Assembly: GCA_012959785.1 (NCBI GenBank) | Contig: DUCM01000018.1 | Location: 182,684-246,683, forward strand | Reading direction: 5' to 3' | Origin: Planctomycetota bacterium | Lineage (GTDB): Bacteria > Planctomycetota > UBA1135 > GCA-002686595 | DNA: 64,000 nt | Shown here: positions 47,980 through 61,565 of the stretch, piece by piece | Layout: the number at the start of each line of letters is the position of its first letter | Position numbering within the stretch: the stretch's first letter is position 1 | Notes under the pieces: model-generated | Seen by the model: the letters and a program-made list of their open reading frames with translations, nothing else | Told to the model about the DNA's origin: nothing | Database searches by the model: none | Position numbers and translations under genes: made by a program

Positions 47980-49497
47980 ATGGAAACACCCTGGCTGATC
48001 TTCATGGGCCGTTTGCACCCCTTGGTGCTGCACCTGCCCATCGGTTTTCTGGCGGCCCTTTTGGCCCTGGAGGCCTGGGGCAAGGTTTTTGAACGGGCGC
48101 AGGTGACGCCCATGCAGCGAGGGTTGCTGGCCGTGCTCTTTTGGCTCAGCGCCCTTGCGAGTGCTGGCTCGGGCTGGTTGCTCGGCCTCGAAGACGGGCA
48201 CGCGAGCGGCGACCTTTTCCTGCATCAGGGTCTGGGGCTCGTGGCCGCGACCACCTTGACTGCTCTGGCCGCCCTGGGCCAGCGTCGCGGGCTTTACCGT
48301 TTGTCCCTGGCCCTCTCGATCCTGGCGGTTTTGGGAGCCGGGCACCTGGGGTCATCCATGACCCAAGGTGAGGCTTTTTTGGCGAAACCGGAGAGCGAGA
48401 TCGTCGCAGTCGCCCAGGAGCAGCCTGACCAGACGCCGGCTCCAGTCATCCCGACCTGGTACGAGGCGCGCATCGCGCCGATCCTCCATGACTACTGCAT
48501 CAAGTGCCACGGCGAGAAGAAACAAAAGGGCGACCTTGCCCTGCACACCGGCGAGATCATGCTGGCGGGCAGCGAGTTCTTGCAAGTCGTGATTCCCGGT
48601 GATGCGGAAGCCAGTCCGCTCATTCAGCGATTGCGGCTTCCCAGGGACCACGAGGACCACATGCCTCCCGAGGCCAAGGACCAGCCGCGACCGGAGGACT
48701 TGCGCGAACTCGCCCGTTGGATCGCTGCCGGCGCGTCTCTTGTCGCGGCGGCGCCCGAGGCTCTTGCGGATGAAGATCTACAAGCTCCAGGTGTGGTTGC
48801 CGAACCCGCGCCCGCCGTGCTATCCGCGCAAGCAGTGGAAGCGCTGCGCCGTCTGCAAGTGCATGTGGAGATCATCGATCCCAGCTCGCAGCTTTTGTGG
48901 ATCAATTGCAGACCCCGTCCCGGCGTCGATGACGAGTTCTTGGCGGACTACCTGCAACCCTTGGCGGGCTTTGTCGGTGAACTCTCCTTGGCTGGCACCG
49001 CGCTCGGGAACGCCGGTCTCGCGGCCCTGGAGGGCATGACGCGGCTCGAGCGGCTGGACCTCTCGGCCACGGCTTGTGGAGCCGAGGGCCTGGCACGGCT
49101 TGTCGGTCTGCCTGCTCTGCGATCCTTGAACCTGACGAACACGGCCCTCGGCGATGAGGCCATCGAGATCCTGGTCGCCATGTCGGCTCTCGAGCGGGTC
49201 CAGCTCTGGGGCACGGGTTTGAGTGCGGAGGGCCTTGCTCGCTTGCGCGAGGCGCGGCCCGCCCTGCGCCTGGAAGTGGGGGCCCTCGCCACTCTTCTGG
49301 CACTCGAAACCGAACCCCCGGTGTCCTTCTCCAAGCATCCCGAGCTCGATGCTCATAACGGTTCCTGCCCCGTGACCCAAAAGCCCGTGGACCCGCGCTT
49401 CCGGGTGGTCCACGACGATAGGGTGGTGGGCTTTTGCTGCCCGAACTGCCCATCCGTGTTCCTGAACGCGCCCGAGGAGTATCCCCTGGGAGAGTGA
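47980..49497 (+). CDS. Membrane PSCyt1 cytochrome with DUF2231, leucine-rich repeats and YHS-like end
   Basis: 505 residues, starting 6 bases after the DUF1501 gene. Four N-terminal membrane helices (LHPLVLHLPIGFLAALLALEAW) resemble DUF2231, followed by a PSCyt1 domain with haem motif CIKCHG near residue 173 and MPPEAKDQP. Short leucine-rich repeats run ~320-440 (LERLDLSATACGAEGLARL). The last ~45 residues form a metal-binding YHS-like unit (GSCPVTQKPVDP, FCCPNCPSVFL). It is probably the membrane electron-transfer member of the three-gene cytochrome block. Confidence 0.85.
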   Translation: METPWLIFMGRLHPLVLHLPIGFLAALLALEAWGKVFERAQVTPMQRGLLAVLFWLSALASAGSGWLLGLEDGHASGDLFLHQGLGLVAATTLTALAALGQRRGLYRLSLALSILAVLGAGHLGSSMTQGEAFLAKPESEIVAVAQEQPDQTPAPVIPTWYEARIAPILHDYCIKCHGEKKQKGDLALHTGEIMLAGSEFLQVVIPGDAEASPLIQRLRLPRDHEDHMPPEAKDQPRPEDLRELARWIAAGASLVAAAPEALADEDLQAPGVVAEPAPAVLSAQAVEALRRLQVHVEIIDPSSQLLWINCRPRPGVDDEFLADYLQPLAGFVGELSLAGTALGNAGLAALEGMTRLERLDLSATACGAEGLARLVGLPALRSLNLTNTALGDEAIEILVAMSALERVQLWGTGLSAEGLARLREARPALRLEVGALATLLALETEPPVSFSKHPELDAHNGSCPVTQKPVDPRFRVVHDDRVVGFCCPNCPSVFLNAPEEYPLGE

Positions 49498-49509
49498 GGT
49501 TCGCCGTCG

Positions 49510-49515
49510 TATCCT
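49510..49515 (+). promoter_or_regulatory. Possible -10 element of selenocysteine peroxiredoxin gene
   Basis: TATCCT, 7 bases before the ATG at 49523; no Shine-Dalgarno sequence. Confidence 0.35.
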
Positions 49516-49522
49516 GGGGTCC

Positions 49523-50014
49523 ATGTTCGGCGACCTGGTGCGTAGGTTCCTGCCCGTGGGCGGAGCCAAGATCACCCTCCAAGCGGGGGACTCTGCACCT
49601 GTTTGGAACTGCTTCGATCACCAGGGAGAAGAGCGCAGCTCTGAGGAGCTGCGCGGCAAACGCTACATCCTGTGGTTCTACCCGCGGGCGGCGACTCCCG
49701 GCTGAACCCGCCAGGCCAAGGGGTTCCGTGATCGAACCCCGGACTTTGCAGCCCTCGGTGTCGAGATTCTGGGCGCTTCATTTGATAGCCCACAAGCCAA
49801 CGCCGCCTTTGCCGAGAGCCACGGAATCAAGTTTCCGTTGCTGTGCGACACGAGCCGCGGTTTGGGCTTGGCTTTCGGCGCCTGCGTGAAGAAGAGCGAC
49901 GGCTTTGCCGCGCGCTTCACCTTCGTCATCAGTCCCGAGGGGCTTATCGAACAGACACTCGCGACCCGCGACCCCGCGCGTCAAGCAGAATCGTTGTTGG
50001 CGGACTTGTCCTGA
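49523..50014 (+). CDS. Selenocysteine peroxiredoxin (PrxQ/Bcp type), TGA read as Sec61
   Basis: Read through the in-frame TGA at 49703-49705, the frame encodes 163 residues, the normal length for PrxQ/Bcp. The TGA falls exactly where the peroxidatic Cys belongs: YPRAATPG-U-TRQAKGFRD, against the family's TPGC-x5-RD. After it the fold continues without a break (FAALGVEILGASFDSP, GIKFPLLCDTSRGLGLAFG, RFTFVISPEG) to a true stop at 50012. The resolving Cys usually five residues after the active one is Lys here. A SECIS-like hairpin follows the TGA. It should reduce hydroperoxides with a thiol partner, possibly the Sec thioredoxin at 54559. Stopping at the TGA would leave a 60-residue fragment without an active site. 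Confidence 0.88.
49720..49740 (+). promoter_or_regulatory. SECIS-like hairpin of the Sec peroxiredoxin
   Basis: A perfect 7-base-pair stem GGGGTTC/GAACCCC with 7-base loop CGTGATC, starting 14 bases after the TGA. G is the second loop base, as in bacterial SECIS elements, and the loop lies within the usual 16-37 base distance. Confidence 0.72.
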
Positions 50015-50035
50015 GTGCCTGCTAGCAGCGGCGGG

Positions 50036-51298
50036 CTAGCGTTTGCGGTAGGTCTTCTTGACCCACTTGCACCAGGCCTTGTCGAACTCCTCGGGCGTTA
50101 GACCAAAATGGTCTTTGAGGGCCTTCTTTTGGCGGTTGACCAGCTCGTCGTCGTTCTGGTTCGTGGAGAACCCGCCGCTCGCATTACAGATGGCGGAGAG
50201 AAAGGCACGCTTGTCGCCCTCGAGCTCGTCCATCAGAAACTCGGTCTTGGACCAGGAAACCATGTGGTCGCGTTGGTGCAAATCCTCATATTTCTTCCAG
50301 GTGAACATGTCGTTGGCTGAGGCGTAGAAGCCGTTGTCGACCAGGTTGTAGACTCTGGGCGACCACTTCCAGGCATCCCACTTGCTGCCCTGGTTTTCCT
50401 TGCGGCCGTCAAAGAGCGTCCAGTGTGGATCGATGCGACGCAGGTTCCGGTGCGACATGCCGTACACGAACCAGCGCGGCGCCGAGAACATGTTGTCCTG
50501 GTATCCGTCCATGAAGGTGGTGGTGAGGTTCGAGGCCAGCATATTGTGCAGCATGGTGTCGAAGGGCAGCTCGGTTTCCATCTCCCGGCCTTCTTTTATG
50601 GCCTCGATGTTGATCGCAACGAAAAGAGCATCGTTGCGCATGACGGTCCGGTAGGCATATTCGATGTCCGAGTTGTGATAGTTGCGCACATAGCGGCCAA
50701 ACTCGCTCTTGCGCTGGCAGACGACGAGCACGATCTTGTTGGGATAGCCCATGTGGGGTCCGGACTTCTTGAAGTCGCTCTCGGTCAGACTGAAGTCCTC
50801 ACAGAACTCGGCGTAATGGTCCTCGGCCCGTTGGGCAAAGATGTGCAGCCGGAGCCACGGGTCGAGTTTCTTCTTGGGTTCCTTGAGCCGGCCCAACTTT
50901 TTCTTGAGGCGCTTGATCTCGTCCTTGAGCTTGCTCCGTTCGTCGCGGTTGTTGGGGATCTTGTAGGTCCCCAGGGTTGAAGCGATGCAAAAGTGCTCGG
51001 TTTCGGCGAACAGCATGTCGATGCCGCCCAGATTCATTTGCAAGGTGCGCGTGTCTTCACCGGGTCGCCAGGGACCGTGCCCCAAGCGCACATAGCCGAG
51101 CTTCTTGACAAGCTCGTCCTTGCCCTTGGTGTAGGGGTCCTCTTCTTCGAACTCCTCCATGCCCTCCTTTTCACCCTTGCCCTGGCCCTGGGTGTTGGCC
51201 AGGGTGAGATTGCAGGAGAAGAGTAGAATCGAGAGGGCCGTGAGTCCTCCAGGGAAGACCCTCGAGGGAAGGCGCGAGGCGCGGAGCGCATTCAGCAT
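50036..51298 (-). CDS. Exported hypothetical protein with a peptidase-like C-terminal half
   Basis: 420 residues from ATG 51298 with a signal peptide (GGLTALSILLFSCNLTLA). It is followed by an acidic and Lys-rich linker, a helical charged region (KLKDEIKRLKKKLGRLKE) and a C-terminal ~270-residue domain with MLHNMLASNLTTTFMDGYQDN and RWFVYGMSHRNLRR, which has the layout of a peptidase-associated or helical metalloprotease-like fold; no HExxH is visible. It ends LTPEEFDKAWCKWVKKTY, a tail seen in DUF1570-like planctomycete proteins. Function unassigned. It lies 105 bases downstream of the Sec-Sec protein on the same strand and may share its transcript. Confidence 0.65.
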   Translation of the reverse strand: MLNALRASRLPSRVFPGGLTALSILLFSCNLTLANTQGQGKGEKEGMEEFEEEDPYTKGKDELVKKLGYVRLGHGPWRPGEDTRTLQMNLGGIDMLFAETEHFCIASTLGTYKIPNNRDERSKLKDEIKRLKKKLGRLKEPKKKLDPWLRLHIFAQRAEDHYAEFCEDFSLTESDFKKSGPHMGYPNKIVLVVCQRKSEFGRYVRNYHNSDIEYAYRTVMRNDALFVAINIEAIKEGREMETELPFDTMLHNMLASNLTTTFMDGYQDNMFSAPRWFVYGMSHRNLRRIDPHWTLFDGRKENQGSKWDAWKWSPRVYNLVDNGFYASANDMFTWKKYEDLHQRDHMVSWSKTEFLMDELEGDKRAFLSAICNASGGFSTNQNDDELVNRQKKALKDHFGLTPEEFDKAWCKWVKKTYRKR

Positions 51299-51403
51299 GG
51301 CGGTGCGGCGGTGGGCGGAACGGGGGGGGCAAAAGAAGAGAGCGACGAACACCGCGTGCTCGTCGCCCTCTGATTCTATGCAGGTGGAACCTCGGAGGGT
51401 TGC

Positions 51404-52354
51404 TTAGTTGCTGGCAACCTCGGTTTCACTCTTGTCCGCGCGTTGGCGCTTGAGCTCGATCTTGTAGGCATTGACGGCCTTGGCGTCGAGTTCATCGCGT
51501 GCCGCTTGGGCTTTGAGGATCTTCTTGGCGATCTTGGGCAGCTTCTTCGACTTCGGGCCATCCTCTTCGAGAATCTCGTTTTGGCGTCCGATCAGGTGGG
51601 CCAGGCGGCTATCCGCATTGTCCATCTTGTCGAGAAGTTTGGCGATCGACTTCAGGGGGGCGTCGGGCTTTTTCTTGTACTCCGTGGCGAGCAGGTCTCG
51701 CATGGAGTTCCACAACTCGGTGCGCGAAGTCTGGGACTCGAGCGGGTCATGGTTGCTGCCGTCGACCGAACACACGAACAGGTGTTCGGGGCTCTTGTCC
51801 TGAACGAAGAGAACATGGAAGGGGTGATCTTCTTCGAGAACATCCACGGGCAGCTTCACGCAGTGGAACCAGCGCGAAAGCAGGAATGTCTTCTCGTTGT
51901 CGATACCGCCCTTGAGCAGTGCCTCGTCGGTGCCGTTACAGACCTTGCACTCACGCAAGACAAGCAGCGGGCGCGGATCGTCGCCAGCGATGACGGCGAT
52001 GGCGTCAGTGCGGCTCAGAGCCGAGCGCTTGACTTGGGCCACCGTGCGACCGTCCTTGGCTTCGACCTTGGGGGCGTAGACCGGATAATCCCATTCGATA
52101 CGCAGGTAGTTGCGCGCACTCGGGCCACGCACAACCGGCGGCATACTGGCCGGACCGGCGGGACTCGAAGTCGGACCGCCTGCGGGCGGCGGGCTAGTGG
52201 GGCCACCAGAGGGAGGGGGAGGAGTTGAACCAGGAGCCGCACCGGCTCCAGCGGAGGGACCGCTTCATCAGCCGGGGACGGCGCCGGAGGGGGCACCCAT
52301 CATGGCGATCATGGCGGCGCTAAGGCTTGCAGCCCACAGCTTCTTGGAGAACAT
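51404..52354 (-). CDS. Exported protein with tandem in-frame TGA (predicted Sec29-Sec30), thioredoxin-like core
   Basis: Read through two adjacent TGA codons (52270-52265), the frame gives 316 residues. ATG 52354 has GGAG 9 bases upstream and opens a signal peptide (MFSKKLWAASLSAAMIAMMG, then APSGAVPG). The two TGA codons follow at once. The same frame then continues as a Gly/Pro/Ser linker (SGPSAGAGAAPGSTPPPP) into a folded domain with strand-helix order like thioredoxin (RPLLVLRECKVCNGTDEALL, LFVCSVDGSN) and a helical basic tail. Without read-through there would be only a 28-residue signal peptide, and the domain would lose its export signal. A SECIS-like hairpin lies at the right distance. 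Activity unknown; a vicinal diselenol suggests redox or metal binding. Confidence 0.72.
52233..52249 (-). promoter_or_regulatory. SECIS-like hairpin of the Sec-Sec protein
   Basis: On the minus strand GGAGCC-GGTGC-GGCTCC: a perfect 6-base-pair stem and 5-base loop starting with GG. It begins 15 bases after the second TGA, so the loop is ~22 bases from it and ~25 from the first. A smaller AGCGG/CCGCT hairpin lies between. Confidence 0.62.
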
Positions 52355-52677
52355 GGTCTTGGCTCCTGTTGTTGTTCGTGAATCTTGGCAACTAAAATAG
52401 GGTCCGGAAGTCGCAGAGGCCCGAGGGGCTCTGCGGCAACGGACACGGGTCCTAGTAGAACTATCGGCTGCGGATTCTGAAAGGCACGAATTGAAAGCCC
52501 TTGGGACGGATCTCAAAGACGCCCTGAATTGGTCGATCTGGAGTCTTGTAAAGTAAGTGTAGGCAAGGAGTTAGGGGTATTTTTGTATTCCTTGCCGCCT
52601 CCGTATTGGGAAGGAATCTTACGCTGTAAGGCCTGCCTCCGCGCAAAGCCCCCTCACTTCCCGCCTCCTCCAAGCCC
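52355..52677. other. Divergent intergenic region (323 bases)
   Basis: Separates the Sec-Sec gene (minus) from the phosphoesterase gene (plus). It holds a GCAGAGG/CTCTGC hairpin at 52416-52437, which would lie in or near the leader of the Sec-Sec gene, and an 8-base-pair hairpin GGCAAGGA/TCCTTGCC at 52562-52596 with a T-rich loop. No gene or known riboswitch recognised. Confidence 0.45.
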
Positions 52678-54555
52678 ATGCTCTCGACCTCCATCGCTGC
52701 CCTCTGCGCCGCTCTTCTCGCCTCAAGCCACGACGGCCCCGACCCGATCGGCAGTTGGTCGCTCTCCTCGGCGGACTTCGATGGTGCCCGACTCGAAGCC
52801 GTGTTGGGCGTCCATGGCCGCGCCGAGGGCCCCCTGGCCTTCGTCGAAGATGCCCATGGCGACGCCCTGTACTTCGACGGCCGTGCGACTCGTGTGGTGC
52901 TCGCAACCGACCACGCCACTTCAGAGCAGCGCCTGCCCACACGCCACATGACCATCGAGGCCTGGGCTTCGGTCAACACACCTGCGGCTTGGGGCGGACT
53001 CTTGGGTCTCTTGCAGGACAATGGCGATGCCGAGGCGGGTTGGATCCTCGGTTACGACGGCAAGGTTTTTACCTTTGGCCTAGCCAGCAAAGGGGCGGAC
53101 GACGGCAACGGCCAGATCACATACATGCAAGGCAAGACGCCCTACGAGATCGGCGTCCTGCACCATGTGGTCGGTACCTTCGACGGCGAGACGATGAAGT
53201 TGTATGTCGACGGCGAGCTCGATGCCGAGAGCGAAGCGCAGTCCGGCGATATCCTCTACCCCGACCACGCCGAGCTCGTTCTGGGCGGCTATGTCGACCG
53301 CAACGAGAGCTTCTTTCACAACGGTCGCCTGCGCTCGGTGCGGCTCTTCGATCGCGCCGCAAGTTCCGGGTGGGTGCGCGCCGGCTTTGCCCACGGCCGC
53401 GAGCTGCGTCACGCCGATCCCTACCTTTGGATCGATCCAGAGTTGCGTTGGGTGGTGCAGCCCTATTTGCAGTGGGCGACCAAGGACGGCATGACCATCC
53501 GCTGGGAGACTTCGCGGCCGGGCTCCAGCGAGATTCGCTTTGGACGGGCCGTGGAGTTTAGCGGCGAAGGCGACGCACGGGTCGGCCTGCTTCCCAAGCT
53601 CAAGAGTGACGCGAGCCTCGTTCTGCACCACGAACTGCGCCTCGAGGGACTCGAACCCGAGACGGCCTACTACTACCAGGCTGTGACCCACGACGACCTC
53701 GGCCGCGAGTTGGCTTCGACCTTCCTCAGTTTTCAGACTGCCTGTGTTGGGGACACACCTTTTGCCTTCGCGGTTATCAGTGACACCCAGGGCAATCCCT
53801 CCGTCAACGGCAGAATCGCCCAGTTGGCCTGGGCTCAACGCCCGAGCTTCGTGTTGCACCCCGGCGACCTAGTGGACACCGGCTCGGTCAAGTCCCAGTG
53901 GGTGCACGAGTTCTTCGGCAGCATGCAGCCCCTGTTCGAACGCGTGGCGTTCTTCCCCGTGCTCGGAAACCACGAGCAGGACGCGCGGCTCTACTACGAA
54001 TACATGTCCCTACCGGACCCGGAGTACCACTACACCTTCGTCTACGGCAATGCCCAGTTCTTCATGCTGGACTCGAACCGTCAGGTGGGCCCTGGGACGC
54101 GGCAGTACAAGTGGTTGTCCGGGGAACTAGCCCGCAGCCGCGCCACCTGGAAACTCGTCATCTACCACCATCCCGCCTACACCTCTGACGAAAACGACTA
54201 CGGCGACACCTGGAGCGGCCCGTCTACCCGCGGCGACATGCGCGTGCGCGCCCTCGTGCCGCTCTTCGACAAGCATGGTGTCGATATCGTCTGGAACGGC
54301 CACATCCATTCCTACGAACGCACCTGGCCTCTGCGAGACGACCGCGCCCGCCAATCCCAGGACGGCACCGTCTACATGATCACCGGCGGCGGCGGAGGCT
54401 CATTGGAAACCGCCGGACCCATCCGGCCCTTCTTCCAGAACAATGTCCGCCATGGCCACCACTACTGCATGGTGGCCATTAGTGGCAAGACCCTTGAGAT
54501 GAAGGCCTTCGACCTCGACGACCGCTTGTTCGACTCCCTGGTGATCGGGAAATAG
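52678..54555 (+). CDS. Exported LamG and purple-acid-phosphatase-like metallophosphoesterase
   Basis: 625 residues with a short signal peptide (MLSTSIAALCAALLASS). Residues ~25-240 form a LamG/concanavalin-like domain (ATRVVLATDHATSEQ, MKLYVDGELD, LVLGGYVDR). A fibronectin-like PAP N-terminal domain follows (IRWETSRPGSSEIRFG, LEGLEPETAYYYQAVTHDD). The calcineurin-like catalytic domain shows all metal-binding blocks: VISDTQGN, HPGDLVDTG, VLGNHEQD, IYHHPAY and NGHIHSYERTWP. It probably hydrolyses phosphate esters outside the cytoplasm, with the LamG part targeting a polymer. It converges on the Sec thioredoxin gene with 3 bases between stops. Confidence 0.9.
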   Translation: MLSTSIAALCAALLASSHDGPDPIGSWSLSSADFDGARLEAVLGVHGRAEGPLAFVEDAHGDALYFDGRATRVVLATDHATSEQRLPTRHMTIEAWASVNTPAAWGGLLGLLQDNGDAEAGWILGYDGKVFTFGLASKGADDGNGQITYMQGKTPYEIGVLHHVVGTFDGETMKLYVDGELDAESEAQSGDILYPDHAELVLGGYVDRNESFFHNGRLRSVRLFDRAASSGWVRAGFAHGRELRHADPYLWIDPELRWVVQPYLQWATKDGMTIRWETSRPGSSEIRFGRAVEFSGEGDARVGLLPKLKSDASLVLHHELRLEGLEPETAYYYQAVTHDDLGRELASTFLSFQTACVGDTPFAFAVISDTQGNPSVNGRIAQLAWAQRPSFVLHPGDLVDTGSVKSQWVHEFFGSMQPLFERVAFFPVLGNHEQDARLYYEYMSLPDPEYHYTFVYGNAQFFMLDSNRQVGPGTRQYKWLSGELARSRATWKLVIYHHPAYTSDENDYGDTWSGPSTRGDMRVRALVPLFDKHGVDIVWNGHIHSYERTWPLRDDRARQSQDGTVYMITGGGGGSLETAGPIRPFFQNNVRHGHHYCMVAISGKTLEMKAFDLDDRLFDSLVIGK

Positions 54556-54558
54556 CGG

Positions 54559-55683
54559 CTATTCGTTGGCAGTCTGCGCCACGAGCTCCTTGGCAATTTT
54601 GGTGGCGGCTTCGCCATTGTGGCCGCGGTAGCGGATCCGCATTTCGGCGTCGAGGACCACGATGGTGGGCCAGCCGGTCACGAACCACTCGCTTGAAATG
54701 GACGCCTCGGCGCCAGCGGGGGAGTTTTGGAAGCTGCGCCAATTGAGCTTGTTGGAAGCCACGGCCTTCTTGGCTGTCTCGAGTTCGTCGGAGTTCACGC
54801 CGATGAGCGCGAAGGGCTGGTCTTTCATCTCTTCCACAAGCGACCGCTCGTGGGGGTATAGCGCCCGGCAGGGGCCTCACCAGTCGCCCCAGAAGTCGAG
54901 GAAGATGACCTGGCCGCGATAATTGGAGAGCTTGAAGGATTGGCCGTCGAGGTCGACTCCCTCGATGTCTGGCGCCACCATGCCAGTGGAGAATTTCTCG
55001 CGCACTTCGATGCCTTGGGCGATCTGTCCCTTGAGGTAGGGGTCGTCGACGCCTTGCATGGCGGCACGGATCTCCTTCTTGGCGGCTTCGTGCAGGTCGG
55101 AACCCAGGGGGGCCTTTGCGAGGGGATCGGCCACGCGGGCGAAGACCGCCCAGGCTCGCACGCTCGCCACGGGGCTCTCCCGTTGCAGCTTGCCGAGCAT
55201 GCCGAGGGCCTCTTCGGCGGAAAAGAGGTTTAGGAGCTGCGGCAGGCTGTAGGAAATCTGCGCCAGGCTAGGGCTCTTGGCGTGGTTCTCGACGAGCGTC
55301 ATGATGGCTTGCTTACCGGCTTCCTGGTCGGCGCCAATACCTCGGCTTGCAATCCAGATTAGGAATGGGACCGCGTCCTCACTACCGGCGTAGTCCTCGG
55401 CCGCAGCCAAGAAACGAGGCACGAACTTGCCGTAGGGCGGCATCATCGAGAGCGCGGGCATGGACTCGCCGGGTTCAGCCTGTTCTGCCTTCTCGACCAG
55501 AACGCGCTGCTCTTCACGCCAGGCGTCTTCGGCCGCTGCGACTTCTTCTTCGAGAGCGTCGAAGTGTTCGCTGGGCGTGACCTGGGGTTCTTGTGCTTCG
55601 GCTGCGTCTTGCGCGACGAGGCTGCGGCTGCCTGCGGCGAACAGCATGGCCAAAAGCAGCGTGGGAATCAGGCGGGCTTGCAT
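54559..55683 (-). CDS. Exported TlpA-like thioredoxin with selenocysteine (U-G-P-C), TGA read as Sec269
   Basis: Read through the TGA at 54879-54877, the frame encodes 374 residues from ATG 55683 with a signal peptide (MQARLIPTLLLAMLFAAGS). A helical N-terminal ~220 residues precede a TlpA/ResA-type thioredoxin domain: GQVIFLDFWGDW-U-GPCRALYPHERS, then FALIGVNSDE, WRSFQNSPAG and the cis-Pro segment VTGWPTIVVLD. The TGA replaces the first Cys of the canonical C-G-P-C. Both halves are incomplete alone: the upstream part ends at GDW and the downstream part lacks the first strand. A SECIS-like hairpin follows. It should act as a strong reductant in the periplasm. Confidence 0.88.
54834..54853 (-). 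promoter_or_regulatory. SECIS-like hairpin of the Sec thioredoxin
   Basis: On the minus strand, an 8-base-pair stem CCACGAGC/GCTTGTGG (one G-T pair) closes tetraloop GGTC. It starts 23 bases after the TGA, so the loop with its leading G lies 32-35 bases downstream, inside the usual SECIS range. Confidence 0.68.
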
Positions 55684-55891
55684 GGTGGTTTGTTTGTATG
55701 GGTGAGGCTCTACAAGAGGAGCCCGAAGCCTATCAGACTCATCTCTTGCGCGGCTGGATGATGAGGTTCTCGTCGCGTGCAGGCTATTTGGTGATCCACC
55801 CGTCACCGGTCTTGCGCAGAACTTGAGTTTGCCTGCCCGCAAGTGATTGTGCGCCCTGGCCGCTTCTGTGGCGCGATTGTTGGGCTAACCC

Positions 55892-55897
55892 TATAGT
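55892..55897 (+). promoter_or_regulatory. Possible -10 element, leaderless gene
   Basis: TATAGT, 6 bases before ATG 55904, which would put transcription start at the start codon itself. Confidence 0.45.
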
Positions 55898-55903
55898 CTT
55901 GCC

Positions 55904-58315
55904 ATGGTGCCCCCCCAGTCGATCATGGTGACCGCCTTACTGGCCCTGCCGCTCGCCGCCCAGCCTCTCGCGATCTCTCCTGAAGCTCATGGCGTAACCT
56001 GGGATCCTTGGATGTTGCTCGTGCCCATCGACCATCCCGAGGGGTCCGGTCAGATCGCACCTGCGCACTCGCCCGAGGAGGAGTTGCGCTTCATGGGCGC
56101 CGGCAAACAGGGCCCCGATCTTGAAGCAACCCATCCGGGCAAGGGCGGCCACAAACTGCATTGGCAGCGGCTCGACCCAGAGAGCCAACCGAGGGCCGAG
56201 CCCAGCACGGCACACATCAAGTTTGCCGAGCACTTTCCTGAGGGAATCAACAACACTGGGTTGACTGATAACGCGGCGGCGTACCTCTACCGCGCTGTGC
56301 GCGCCGAAGAGAAGACCAGCCTGACAGTCGAGCTCGGCAGTGATGACGGTTGCCGGGTTTGGCTCAACGGCGAGCTGGTTTACAGTGCCAACATGGAGAG
56401 GGGTGTGATCTACCGTGATGACTCCCTCAAGCTCGAATTGGAAGAGGGATTGAATCACCTTCTGGTCAAGGTTGCCAACGGTGGCGGGGCGTGGGGTTTT
56501 CAGTTGTGGAGCAAGCTGGAATTCACGCCGGCAGTGCGCCAAAAGATGCAGCTCGGTATAAACGCAGCCATTGATCGCGGCGTGGAGTTTCTCTTCAGAA
56601 CTCAGCAGCGCGATGGATCCTGGGCTTTTCATGCGGGTCGCTATCGCAATGGCCAGACGGCACTTTCGCTCTACGCCATACTCAAGAGTGGCGTCAGCGT
56701 CGAGCATCAGTCCGTTCAGCGAGCGCTGGCCTACTTGCGCCAACGGCGTCCGCGCATGACCTATTCCACGACCACGGAAATCCTGGCCCTGGCTGCGGCG
56801 CACCGCGATGGCGATGGCGAGAGAATCGAAGCTCTCGTGGAGCAGCTTGTGGACTGGCAGCAGGGGAGTTTTGGCTACCCGGCCGGTGAGCACGATCTTT
56901 CCTGCACGCAATACGGCGCCCTCGGCTATTGGATCGGGGATTCCCACGGTTATGCCGTGCCCGAACGCTCTTGGAACCACCTTGCCCGCAGCGCGCTCAA
57001 GTTCCACAACCCCGACGGAGGCTTTTCCTACAAACCCAACGGAGCGTCCACCGGTGCCATGACTGTGGCTGGTCTGACGGTGATCGCCGTGTGCCGGCAG
57101 CACTTTGGTGAGGATGATTTCCCCAAGCGCGATCGAGAAAAGCTAGAAAAGGCTCACTCCACGGGTATGGATTGGCTCGCCGAGCACTTCACGGTGAGCA
57201 CGAATCCCCATGCAAGTGGAGACGGAAACACGCAACACAAGTACTACTATCTCTACGGCCTGGAACGCCTCGCAGCTCTGCTTGGCGCTTCTGAGTTTGG
57301 GACCCACAACTGGTACTGGGAGGGTGCCAGCCATCTCCTCCAGATTCAGGGAGACGAAGGCCAGTGGGCGTCGGCCTATGGCGAGCCCGAGCCGAATACC
57401 GCCTTTGCCCTCCTGTTCCTCAACCGCGCCACCGGCACCATCAGCGGGCCCGGCGCGTCGTCGGGCCAACGCAATCTCTATGCGACCTCGGGCGAGGATG
57501 CCCAGGTCATCATGCGCGCCAAGGGCGACACACCACTTAGCCTGTGGCTAAGCGAGATCCAGCCCAGTGTGCGCGCATCTCACAGGCGCGAGGGCGAAGA
57601 GGGCCAGGGACTCTACCTCGAAGCCGTGGAGTATTTTGCCAACGGCATGAGCATCGCACGCATGGCAGCAGACTCGACGAAACTTTGGCGTGGCGAGACC
57701 TTCGCGATGCAGCACACCTTTAGCCGGCGTGGCGTGCACACACTGCAGTTGAAACTTCACTTCGCCGATGTGCCCGGCGCCGAAGGCGGCCGTCCAGCGA
57801 CCGTGAGCTCTGCTCTGCTTGAAGTTCGTGTGGACGCCTTGATGGAGGACTGGATGCTCGACTACACCGATGACCAGCGCGCCAGCCTGGCGATTTCAGC
57901 TCGCAAGGAGATGCGCGCCAGCTCAACGCGCGGCGGGAATGGCGCTGCACTGGCCTTCGACAACTTGCAGTCCACGGCCTGGGTCTGTGCGGCTGACGAT
58001 GGGGAGCCCTCGGTCACCGTCGAGTTCCGCCGCGCCCTGCGCATTGATCGCGTTGTCTTGAGCCACTGCTCCGGCACCCAAATCCACTTTGGCAAGTACG
58101 ATCGCGCCACACGTGTATCGATCGACTTGGGCGGCAAGCGCAAACCTATTCTCTTCGACATGAACCCCGACGAGTTTCGCAAGACTATCTGCGTGCTGCC
58201 ACGCAAGGTGCGTGTGACCAGATTGACCGTGCGCGTACTAGATCGCCTTCCTGGCAGAAAATTCCCTGGTAGCGTGGGCTTCTCAGAAGTCGAATTGCGG
58301 TTGGGCGACGAGTAG
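55904..58315 (+). CDS. Exported PA14-like and squalene/prenyl-cyclase-fold repeat protein
   Basis: 803 residues with an N-terminal signal (IMVTALLALPLAAQP). Residues ~110-200 resemble a PA14-like fold (LTVELGSDDGCRVWLNGELVYS). The centre is an alpha-alpha toroid of the prenyltransferase/squalene-oxidase-repeat kind (GVEFLFRTQQRDGSWAFHAG, RALAYLRQRRPRM, KFHNPDGGFSYKPNG, YYYLYGLERLAALLGA). The last ~150 residues look like a discoidin/NPCBM-like domain (AALAFDNLQSTAWVCAADDG). No DxDD catalytic motif of a true cyclase is visible, so it is more likely a binding or structural protein. Its stop codon is immediately followed by the stop of a convergent gene. Confidence 0.75.
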   Translation: MVPPQSIMVTALLALPLAAQPLAISPEAHGVTWDPWMLLVPIDHPEGSGQIAPAHSPEEELRFMGAGKQGPDLEATHPGKGGHKLHWQRLDPESQPRAEPSTAHIKFAEHFPEGINNTGLTDNAAAYLYRAVRAEEKTSLTVELGSDDGCRVWLNGELVYSANMERGVIYRDDSLKLELEEGLNHLLVKVANGGGAWGFQLWSKLEFTPAVRQKMQLGINAAIDRGVEFLFRTQQRDGSWAFHAGRYRNGQTALSLYAILKSGVSVEHQSVQRALAYLRQRRPRMTYSTTTEILALAAAHRDGDGERIEALVEQLVDWQQGSFGYPAGEHDLSCTQYGALGYWIGDSHGYAVPERSWNHLARSALKFHNPDGGFSYKPNGASTGAMTVAGLTVIAVCRQHFGEDDFPKRDREKLEKAHSTGMDWLAEHFTVSTNPHASGDGNTQHKYYYLYGLERLAALLGASEFGTHNWYWEGASHLLQIQGDEGQWASAYGEPEPNTAFALLFLNRATGTISGPGASSGQRNLYATSGEDAQVIMRAKGDTPLSLWLSEIQPSVRASHRREGEEGQGLYLEAVEYFANGMSIARMAADSTKLWRGETFAMQHTFSRRGVHTLQLKLHFADVPGAEGGRPATVSSALLEVRVDALMEDWMLDYTDDQRASLAISARKEMRASSTRGGNGAALAFDNLQSTAWVCAADDGEPSVTVEFRRALRIDRVVLSHCSGTQIHFGKYDRATRVSIDLGGKRKPILFDMNPDEFRKTICVLPRKVRVTRLTVRVLDRLPGRKFPGSVGFSEVELRLGDE

Positions 58316-59495: not shown

Positions 59496-61565
59496 ATGAC
59501 CCAGTTTGAAGACGCCCGCACGGACATCGATCGCATCGACAGCGAATTGATTCGCTCCCTGGCTGCTCGCATGGAGGTCGTGCGCGCGATCGCTGCCATG
59601 AAGCGCGACAACCCCGATCTGCCCCTCTGCAACGAGGCGCGCGAACGCGATGTCTTCGAGAAGTGGAGCGCCGAGGGCAAGCAACTCGGCCTTTCGCCCT
59701 ATTTTGTGGGCCGCATCCTGCGCGAGGTTCTGAACTACTCGCGCCGCGACCAGGAAAGTGTGCTGGTCCGAGTCGATGATGACTCGAAAGAGACGCGCAA
59801 GGTGCGCGTGGGCTATCAGGGCGCGCCAGGAGCCTACAGCGATCTCGCCATCGAAAAGCTATTCATCTCACGGCCTATGGCAGTCCGGGAGCGCGCCGGT
59901 TTTCACAGCTTTGCCGCAGCTCTCGATGCCCTTGAGGCCAAGGACCTGGACTATGTGCTACTGCCCATCGAGAACACCATCGCGGGTTCGATCAACGATG
60001 TCTATCGGCTCCTGGCCGAGCGCCATGTGCACATCGTCGATGAAGAGGTATGGCATGTGGAGCATGTTCTCGCGGGACTGCCCGGGGCAGAACTCGAAGA
60101 CATCAGCACAGTTCGTTCTCATGTCGTGGCCCTGCAACAGTGCCAGGCTTTCATCGAGGAGCTGGTGGGTTGCGTTGCCGAGAGCCACTACGACACCGCG
60201 GGTTCGGCGGTTTCGGTGGCCGAAGCTGGACAGGCTGGCGTGGCCGCGATCTGCTCCGAAGAGGCTGCCAGGCGTGCGGGCCTCGAGGTGATCAAGCGCG
60301 ATATCGCCGATCGACCGAACAACATGACGCGCTTTGTGCTCGTGGCTCTCGCCCCCGAGCGTGTTGACCCGCGAGTGCGTTCGCGCACCTCGCTCCTGTT
60401 TACGGCCGACCACCGCCGCGGCGCATTGGCGGAATGCCTGCAATACTTCGCGGGTCAGGGCCTGAATCTGTGCAAACTCGAGAGCCGGCCCCTGCCCGAG
60501 ACACCATGGGAATACCTGTTCTATATCGATCTTGAGGGCAATGTTGAGGACCCACGCCTCGCCGACTCGCTCAAGAAGCTCGCCGAGCACACCAACCATC
60601 TGCGTGTCCTGGGCTGTTACCCCGATCGCTCGACCGAGGGCGGCTCGGCCAATGACTGGATGGATACCGACGAGGCCCAGGAGACGAGTTCAGCGCCGCC
60701 CAAGGCTCCCGCCCTCAAGAGCACCGCTGGTCCGCTCGTGACCATCCTGCGCGAAGATTCCAGCGAGCGCGAGCCTTCCGTGGTGCGCATCGGAACAGCG
60801 AACATAGGTGCTCGAGACGAGTTCACCCTGATCCTTGGACCATGCGCTGTGGAAAACCGTGAACAAGTGATGGAAGCCGCGGCTATGGCCCGCGAAGCCG
60901 GCGCCCAAGTCCTGCGCGGCGGCGCTTTCAAACCGCGTTCTTCTCCCTATTCCTTCCAGGGGCTCGGTTGGGAAGGACTCGACCTGCTGGTCGAGGCTGG
61001 CCGCACCTACGGCTTGCCCGTTGTGACCGAGGTTTTGCGTCCCGAGGATGTACAGCGCATGGCCGGGTCGGCCGATATGCTTCAGGTGGGCGCGCGCAAC
61101 ATGCAGAACTTTGCACTCTTGACCGAGCTCGGCAAGGTGCGCCGGCCGGTGCTGCTCAAGCGCGGCATGAGCGCGACGATTGGCGAGCTGCTCGCGGCTG
61201 CCGAGTACATCCTCGCCGGCGGCAACCAACAGGTGATCCTCTGCGAGCGCGGCATCCGCACCTTCGAGACGGCGACCCGGGCGACATTGGATCTGAGTGC
61301 TGTGCCGGTCTTGAAAGCTCGCACACACCTGCCCGTGATTGTCGATCCGTCCCACGCGGCGGGTCGTCGAGATCTCGTGATACCCCTGGCCGCCTCTGCT
61401 GTTGCCGTGGGCGCGGATGGGCTCATCATCGAGTTGCACCCCAATCCCGAAGTGGCCCTGTGCGACAAGGACCAGGCCCTCTGCCGCAGCGACCTGGAGG
61501 ACTTGCGGGCACAGCTCGAGCCCCTGACCAGGGCCATGGGGCGTCGGCTGGGCCAGCCTGGGTAA
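59496..61565 (+). CDS. Trifunctional chorismate mutase-prephenate dehydratase-DAHP synthase
   Basis: 689 residues carrying three enzymes of one pathway. Residues 1-85 are an AroQ chorismate mutase ([20 protein letters not shown]). Residues ~104-285 are prephenate dehydratase ([34 protein letters not shown], catalytic NNMTRFVLV), followed by an ACT domain with the Phe-binding [18 protein letters not shown]. After a linker (~385-425), residues ~440-680 are a type I-beta DAHP synthase ([72 protein letters not shown]). One chain thus holds the shikimate entry step and both steps to phenylpyruvate, so phenylalanine bound by the ACT domain could inhibit all three. Confidence 0.93.

Follow-up and report, generated by a model that had tools for sequence, protein, structure and literature searches.

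A reading frame that continues through two consecutive TGA codons

Does a pair of adjacent in-frame TGA codons just behind a predicted signal peptide end a very short gene, or does it encode two neighbouring selenocysteine (Sec, U) residues in a longer exported protein? The question is raised by a gene on the minus strand at 51404..52354 of a 64,000-nucleotide stretch of Planctomycetota DNA (hereafter the window; positions 182,684 to 246,683 of contig DUCM01000018.1, assembly GCA_012959785.1), for which an earlier reading of the letters alone, the original prediction, had proposed a vicinal Sec pair. The frame is as that prediction described it, on a strand it had left unstated: its sole internal stops are the consecutive TGA codons 29 and 30, with 28 codons upstream of them and 286 after them, up to the TAA at 51404-51406. 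Comparative sequence analysis leads us to infer that the UGA pair is very probably decoded as Sec, and we refer to the product as the UU protein. Its parts are as follows.

51404..52354, minus: gene for the predicted Sec-Sec (UU) protein, 316 residues, 317 codons including the TAA, two in-frame TGA
52363..52367, minus: Shine-Dalgarno-like AGGAG, read from the sequence
52354-52352, minus: start ATG
52280..52354, minus: predicted signal peptide MFSKKLWAASLSAAMIAMMGAPSGA, with probable cleavage between SGA and VPG, judged by eye
52265..52270, minus: TGA-TGA, predicted Sec29-Sec30 (first TGA 52270-52268, second 52267-52265)
52233..52249, minus: hairpin GGAGCCG-GTG-CGGCTCC, resembling a selenocysteine insertion sequence (SECIS)
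52115..52264, minus: linker rich in Gly/Pro/Ala/Ser, with low predicted local distance difference test (pLDDT) values in the structure model
51671..52102, minus: likely thioredoxin-like domain, residues 85-228, from the predicted structure
51938..51949, minus: CKVC motif (C136, C139)
51467..51664, minus: C-terminal helical hairpin, residues 231-296, from the structure model

Most homologues carry TGA or cysteine codons at the positions of the pair

To place the pair in an evolutionary context, we searched 199 related genomes with stops read through and obtained matches in 107 of them. Of 150 match rows, 118 frames were analysed in full, and the site was present in 105 (the main set); the other 13 comprised 2 wrong assignments, one of which shows a single Cys, and 11 frames without the site (7 in which a single Cys was noted by eye, 2 truncated at contig ends, 1 with none and 1 unclear). 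Of the remaining 32 rows, 24 were inspected separately and stand outside the SECIS, tree and substitution-rate counts given below, and 8 were never extracted. Matches occurred in 105 of the 154 genomes from the class of the window genome, with two weak partial matches only among the relatives outside it.

Within the main set, the pair site reads UU in 67 rows, UC in 26, CU in 5 and a single U in 7, the UU form being spread over 64 genomes, 34 genus codes and 4 family codes. Among the 38 rows with a site other than UU, 31 have TGC or TGT as the second kind of codon; the remaining 7 have a G, R or N codon, 3 of them with a Cys 3-5 residues after the U. In an alignment of 54 homologues both columns are at least 90% conserved as U/C. 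The 24 weaker rows gave UU in 2, UC in 7, a single Cys in 9, none or a cut site in 5 and an unclear site in 1 (L179). The original prediction had suggested searching for homologues with CC, CU or UU here; UU and CU were found, as were UC, single-U and single-Cys forms, and CC was absent from all 142 homologous rows. Over the 13 fully analysed frames lacking the site, a single Cys was seen by eye in 8, of which 7 keep the CxxC. Paralogues that carry the same CxxC and have a single Cys directly behind the signal peptide include L065, L056, L109, L110, L111, L114, L158 and L160-L165.

A quick tree of 104 domains (one main-set row was too short) required 13 changes among UU, UC and CU, rising to 20 once single-U rows were included; when only well-supported branches are counted, the required number is lower (6 for UU vs. 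the rest). Repeated Sec/Cys exchange is a classic selenocysteine signature, and the repeated interchange on this tree therefore points to selenocysteine at the pair. We also calculated pooled ratios of nonsynonymous to synonymous substitution rates (dN/dS) from 11 close pairs, some with a common member, obtaining 0.21, 0.14 and 0.15 for the signal peptide, linker and domain, respectively; as these are similar, selection ahead of the TGA codons is of the same kind as elsewhere in the frame. TGA serves as the ordinary terminator of 64 of the 118 extracted frames, so the genetic code is not reassigned. In all 105 main-set homologues, the stretch from the pair to the CxxC region is free of further TGA codons.

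The recurrence of TGATGA at the same place after a signal-peptide-like segment is far beyond chance. A small-x-Ala site lies 1 to 5 residues ahead of the pair in 77/105 homologues, and Pro-Gln precedes it in 65/105. Separately, in loci of one family code (f6; L091 and others) the segment before the pair is nearly invariant, LARPAAPQUU, and because of this near-fixed segment signal cleavage there may fall between VLA and RPAAPQ. A lipobox, in which Sec would replace the lipidated Cys, was considered and dropped, a loose lipobox fitting just 18/105 rows.

Homologous frames run on through the TGAs, with no broken frame seen among relatives, and two isolates carry the gene, Planctomycetes bacterium Poly30 (CP036434.1), which we take to be Saltatorellus ferox, and Pla86 (CP036296.1). 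The copy in Poly30 is of the UU form. A pseudogene or frame artefact was rejected on the strength of the homologous frames, the tree, the dN/dS values and these two isolate genomes. Among the database protein matches listed (120 of 799), coverage reaches at most 82% of the read-through query, and the existing entries for the UU protein apparently begin after the TGAs. A broad DNA pattern for PGUU-like genes matched 73 times in the genome (14 in a reversed control), one match being the UU gene.

A SECIS-like hairpin follows the pair at a near-fixed distance

In the window gene, the hairpin loop starts 22 nt past the second UGA and 25 nt past the first. The bacterial SECIS model calls for a G in the first two loop positions and a distance of 16-37 nt from the UGA (PMC13188914, accessible part). 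For a strict test we required a perfect stem of at least 6 bp, a loop with the bacterial SECIS signature and a loop position 16-22 nt after the pair. This test was passed by 63 of 105 homologues and failed by 42, against an expectation of 6.9 from redrawing synonymous codons (sd 2.4, maximum 20, 200 draws), in keeping with the claim that a hairpin sits at the proper distance. Windows placed 24, 36, 48, 60 and 75 nt further downstream held 9, 5, 6, 2 and 3 stems, respectively. Stem sequences vary and yet pair (GGAGCC/GGCTCC, GGGGCG/CGCCCC, TACCAG/CTGGTG, CACCCC/GGGGTG), and frequent loops include AGTT, GTG, AGTTC, GTC and GGTC.

A wider search (10-30 nt) placed the loop 15-19 nt after the pair in 16/26 UC forms, 19-25 nt after it in 5/5 CU forms and 18-22 nt after it in 43 of the 47 stem-bearing UU forms (67 UU forms in all). 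These distances fit a hairpin positioned for whichever UGA needs it, albeit with a small shift, and in UU forms a single hairpin would serve both UGA codons. A looser test with RNAfold gave a much weaker signal (91/107 vs. 56.8 expected, the 107 including the 2 wrong rows), and the GC-rich linker left little signal in the overall RNA folding energy. Rfam returned no match in 48000-57000.

The genome encodes selenocysteine machinery

The prediction would have been undermined by a genome lacking selA, selB and selC. The genome of the window contains SelA, the SelB wing domain and tRNA-Sec above their cut-offs, although the tRNA-Sec model also matches in all 14 control genomes and exceeds its cut-off in 5. 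SelA was found in 177 of the 199 relatives; a comparison of selA with family presence was set aside as uninformative, selA being nearly universal among them. The sequences themselves thus show a reading frame that is conserved, exchange of U and C at each position of the pair, a covarying hairpin with near-fixed spacing, the Sec machinery, a CxxC in nearly all main-set members and a conserved neighbouring gene (both described below).

A likely thioredoxin-like domain and its CxxC motif

The original prediction had also described a Gly/Pro linker leading into a thioredoxin-like domain with C-K-V-C. The CKVC is there, in the same chain and roughly 105 residues C-terminal to the pair, and the structure model sets it between a strand (130-134) and the helix that follows (143-147); the domain is likely thioredoxin-like. 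R(E/D)CxxC is present in 104/105 main-set homologues and a third Cys in 101/105. In keeping with the undescribed family that had been predicted, neither Pfam nor NCBIfam yields a match above cut-off for the window protein, Pfam thioredoxin families included, and thioredoxin is likewise absent among the weak Pfam families listed for 54 homologues (25 of 45). A sequence search of the PDB gave coiled-coil-like noise only, and the matches listed in a second structural comparison were dominated by the C-terminal helices of the model.

Proposed mechanism and competing explanations

From these features we infer the insertion of Sec and the export, fold and chemistry of the UU protein, and, taken as a whole, we lean somewhat towards an exported selenol-disulfide oxidoreductase with a vicinal-selenol (Sec-Sec) swinging arm that is reset by the CxxC. 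Under this proposal, both UGAs would be read as Sec through one downstream SECIS hairpin. The Sec-Sec pair would then lie close to the N-terminus of the mature protein, where the flexible Gly/Pro linker would let it swing as a redox arm for the CxxC domain. Its vicinal selenols (Sec/Cys in UC and CU forms) would attack an oxidised extracytoplasmic substrate, whether a disulfide, a selenylsulfide or a peroxide, whereupon the pair would form a vicinal diselenide or selenylsulfide, to be reset by a CxxC, that of the same chain where one exists. In the window protein, the separation of about 105 residues would let the arm fold back to the CxxC.

Some paralogues weigh against this relay. The arm persists without any CxxC in six short UC paralogues (L169-L173, L175), while two other paralogues (L174, L176) lack both, and all six genomes with a CxxC-less UC paralogue also encode a main-set member. 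In those six, judged from their sequences, the arm is a more durable feature than the CxxC; same-chain reset therefore cannot be general, and reset by another protein, which these paralogues would need, or some other role of the arm has to be considered. These paralogues accordingly lowered our confidence in an arm relay and raised it in the leading alternative, namely a genuine but non-catalytic Sec-Sec arm that would capture soft metals or metalloids (Hg, Cu, Ag, Cd) or react with electrophiles as a trap. Vicinal chalcogens on a disordered exported tail would suit such capture, as would the retention of the arm without a CxxC and the existence of single-Cys arms, and HgcA and MbdU are among the known families with a CU motif (PMC13188914, accessible part). 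On the other hand, the CxxC in 104/105 and the third Cys in 101/105 of the main set point to a redox relay, and by eye the arm has no His/Met cluster; we regard metal capture as unlikely, if still the most serious competitor.

Distinctly less probable is a structural role, in which interchain diselenides formed by the arm would anchor the protein in the planctomycete envelope. The tail is predicted to be exported, disordered and proline-rich, and planctomycete wall proteins rich in cysteine are known, but conservation of both the CxxC domain and the neighbouring gene speaks for an enzyme rather than wall material.

The two explanations that dispense with Sec fare far worse. Were TGA-TGA a true stop, the signal-peptide frame would be a short one of its own, with a second gene beginning behind it at ATG 52144, an arrangement that would agree with database proteins that apparently begin after the TGAs and with the common use of TGA as a terminator. 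Against this stand the usual substitutes for TGA at the site (TGC and TGT), purifying selection on the signal peptide in the same frame and the SECIS-like hairpin; moreover, no second signal peptide past the pair was seen by eye in the inspected stretches of the 118 frames, and we consider a true stop very improbable. Readthrough with an amino acid other than Sec would likewise keep the frame open through both TGAs, but the U/C exchange, the SECIS-like hairpin and the selA, selB and tRNA-Sec of the genome leave it with hardly any credence.

Neighbouring genes

Three genes near the UU gene bear on its context.

50036..51352, minus: conserved downstream neighbour with a predicted collagenase/gluzincin-like fold lacking HExxH; alternative ATG start at 51298
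49523-50014, plus: peroxiredoxin-like gene with ATPGUTRQ, TGA at 49703-49705, PF00578 (E 2e-29)
54559-55842, minus: TlpA/AhpC-TSA-like gene with WUGPC, TGA at 54879-54877, PF00578 (E 2.8e-15)

The first of these adjoins at least 82 of the 118 homologous frames (gaps measured between match ends). Its predicted fold is that of a collagenase/gluzincin peptidase, and the HExxH zinc motif is absent from all 43 neighbours in an alignment of 43. In the proposed mechanism, this neighbour may hold the substrate peptide. A copy of it also adjoins some single-Cys paralogues of the UU protein. The other two, both within 3 kb of the UU gene, correspond to the two nearby selenoproteins that had been predicted, and each is a PF00578 protein with an in-frame TGA, likely a selenoprotein of a known kind. 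Elsewhere in the window, a 689-residue frame on the plus strand (59496-61565) resembles, by eye, a fusion of chorismate mutase, prephenate dehydratase and DAHP synthase.

Significance and comparison with known systems

If the reading of the pair as Sec-Sec is true, bacteria insert two consecutive Sec residues from one SECIS, and the family offers a test of how far SelB and the ribosome can re-use one hairpin for a codon three bases further on. In its UU, UC, CU, single-U and single-Cys forms, the family amounts to a natural mutant series on why selenium is used and what a second Sec adds. Planctomycete extracellular selenium chemistry would also be under-counted, because database entries seem to start past the pair. 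With the gene carried by a sequenced isolate, Poly30, the hypothesis is testable.

A 2026 review puts the number of prokaryotic selenoprotein families or subfamilies at 119 (PMC13188914), and the accessible portion of its family table contains no UU motif, the nearest entries being CU motifs and VPGUxxT. Nor do the available parts of the deep-Sep paper (PMC12013277), the GOS paper (PMC2398784) and the Porphyra planctomycete paper (PMC4807772) contain such a family. The bacterial CU-motif selenoproteins in that review (HgcA, SaoL, SaoC, MbdU and KCU-star; PMC13188914, accessible part) share vicinal Cys and Sec with the CU and UC forms of the UU family, but their CU motifs lie in other domains. 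NF041383, a VPGUxxT family of thioredoxin-like proteins, is similar in having a PGU tripeptide in a thioredoxin-like selenoprotein; the window protein does not match this model at its 275-bit cut-off, the model is absent among the families listed for 54 homologues (25 of 30), and the sole match in the genome is weak and at another locus.

With the DsbD gamma domain and thioredoxins, the UU protein would share its likely fold and, in the structure model, the CxxC position; it differs from them by an extra helical hairpin and the predicted Sec-Sec arm. Animal thioredoxin reductase carries a C-terminal GCUG arm, a flexible end whose vicinal Sec/Cys pair passes electrons. The resemblance is chemical, whereas the pair of the UU family is N-terminal and mostly Sec-Sec, and the window protein, unlike thioredoxin reductase, has no Pfam match to FAD or NADPH domains.

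The closest precedent is algal PDI_e, whose GUGUU motif contains two consecutive Sec residues and was described as the first Sec-Sec (PMC7539508, accessible part). Adjacent Sec residues, rare according to the original prediction, thus have a precedent in print; PDI_e was the only case of Sec-Sec in a full-text search, most subscription papers lying outside its coverage. The GUGUU motif, on which the comparison with PDI_e is based, occurs in 0/118 homologous frames. Like PDI_e, the UU protein would have consecutive Sec and likely belongs to the thioredoxin superfamily, but PDI_e is a eukaryotic protein disulfide isomerase, whereas the UU family is bacterial: its pair sits in an N-terminal arm that leads into a linker, with a SECIS of the bacterial type immediately behind the two codons. 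By a narrow margin of belief, we would describe the UU family as the first among bacterial selenoproteins to rely on adjacent Sec, with one SECIS for two UGAs and a vicinal diselenide/diselenol as the reactive arm of a new exported redox system, in which a thioredoxin-like enzyme is partnered by a pseudo-metallopeptidase.
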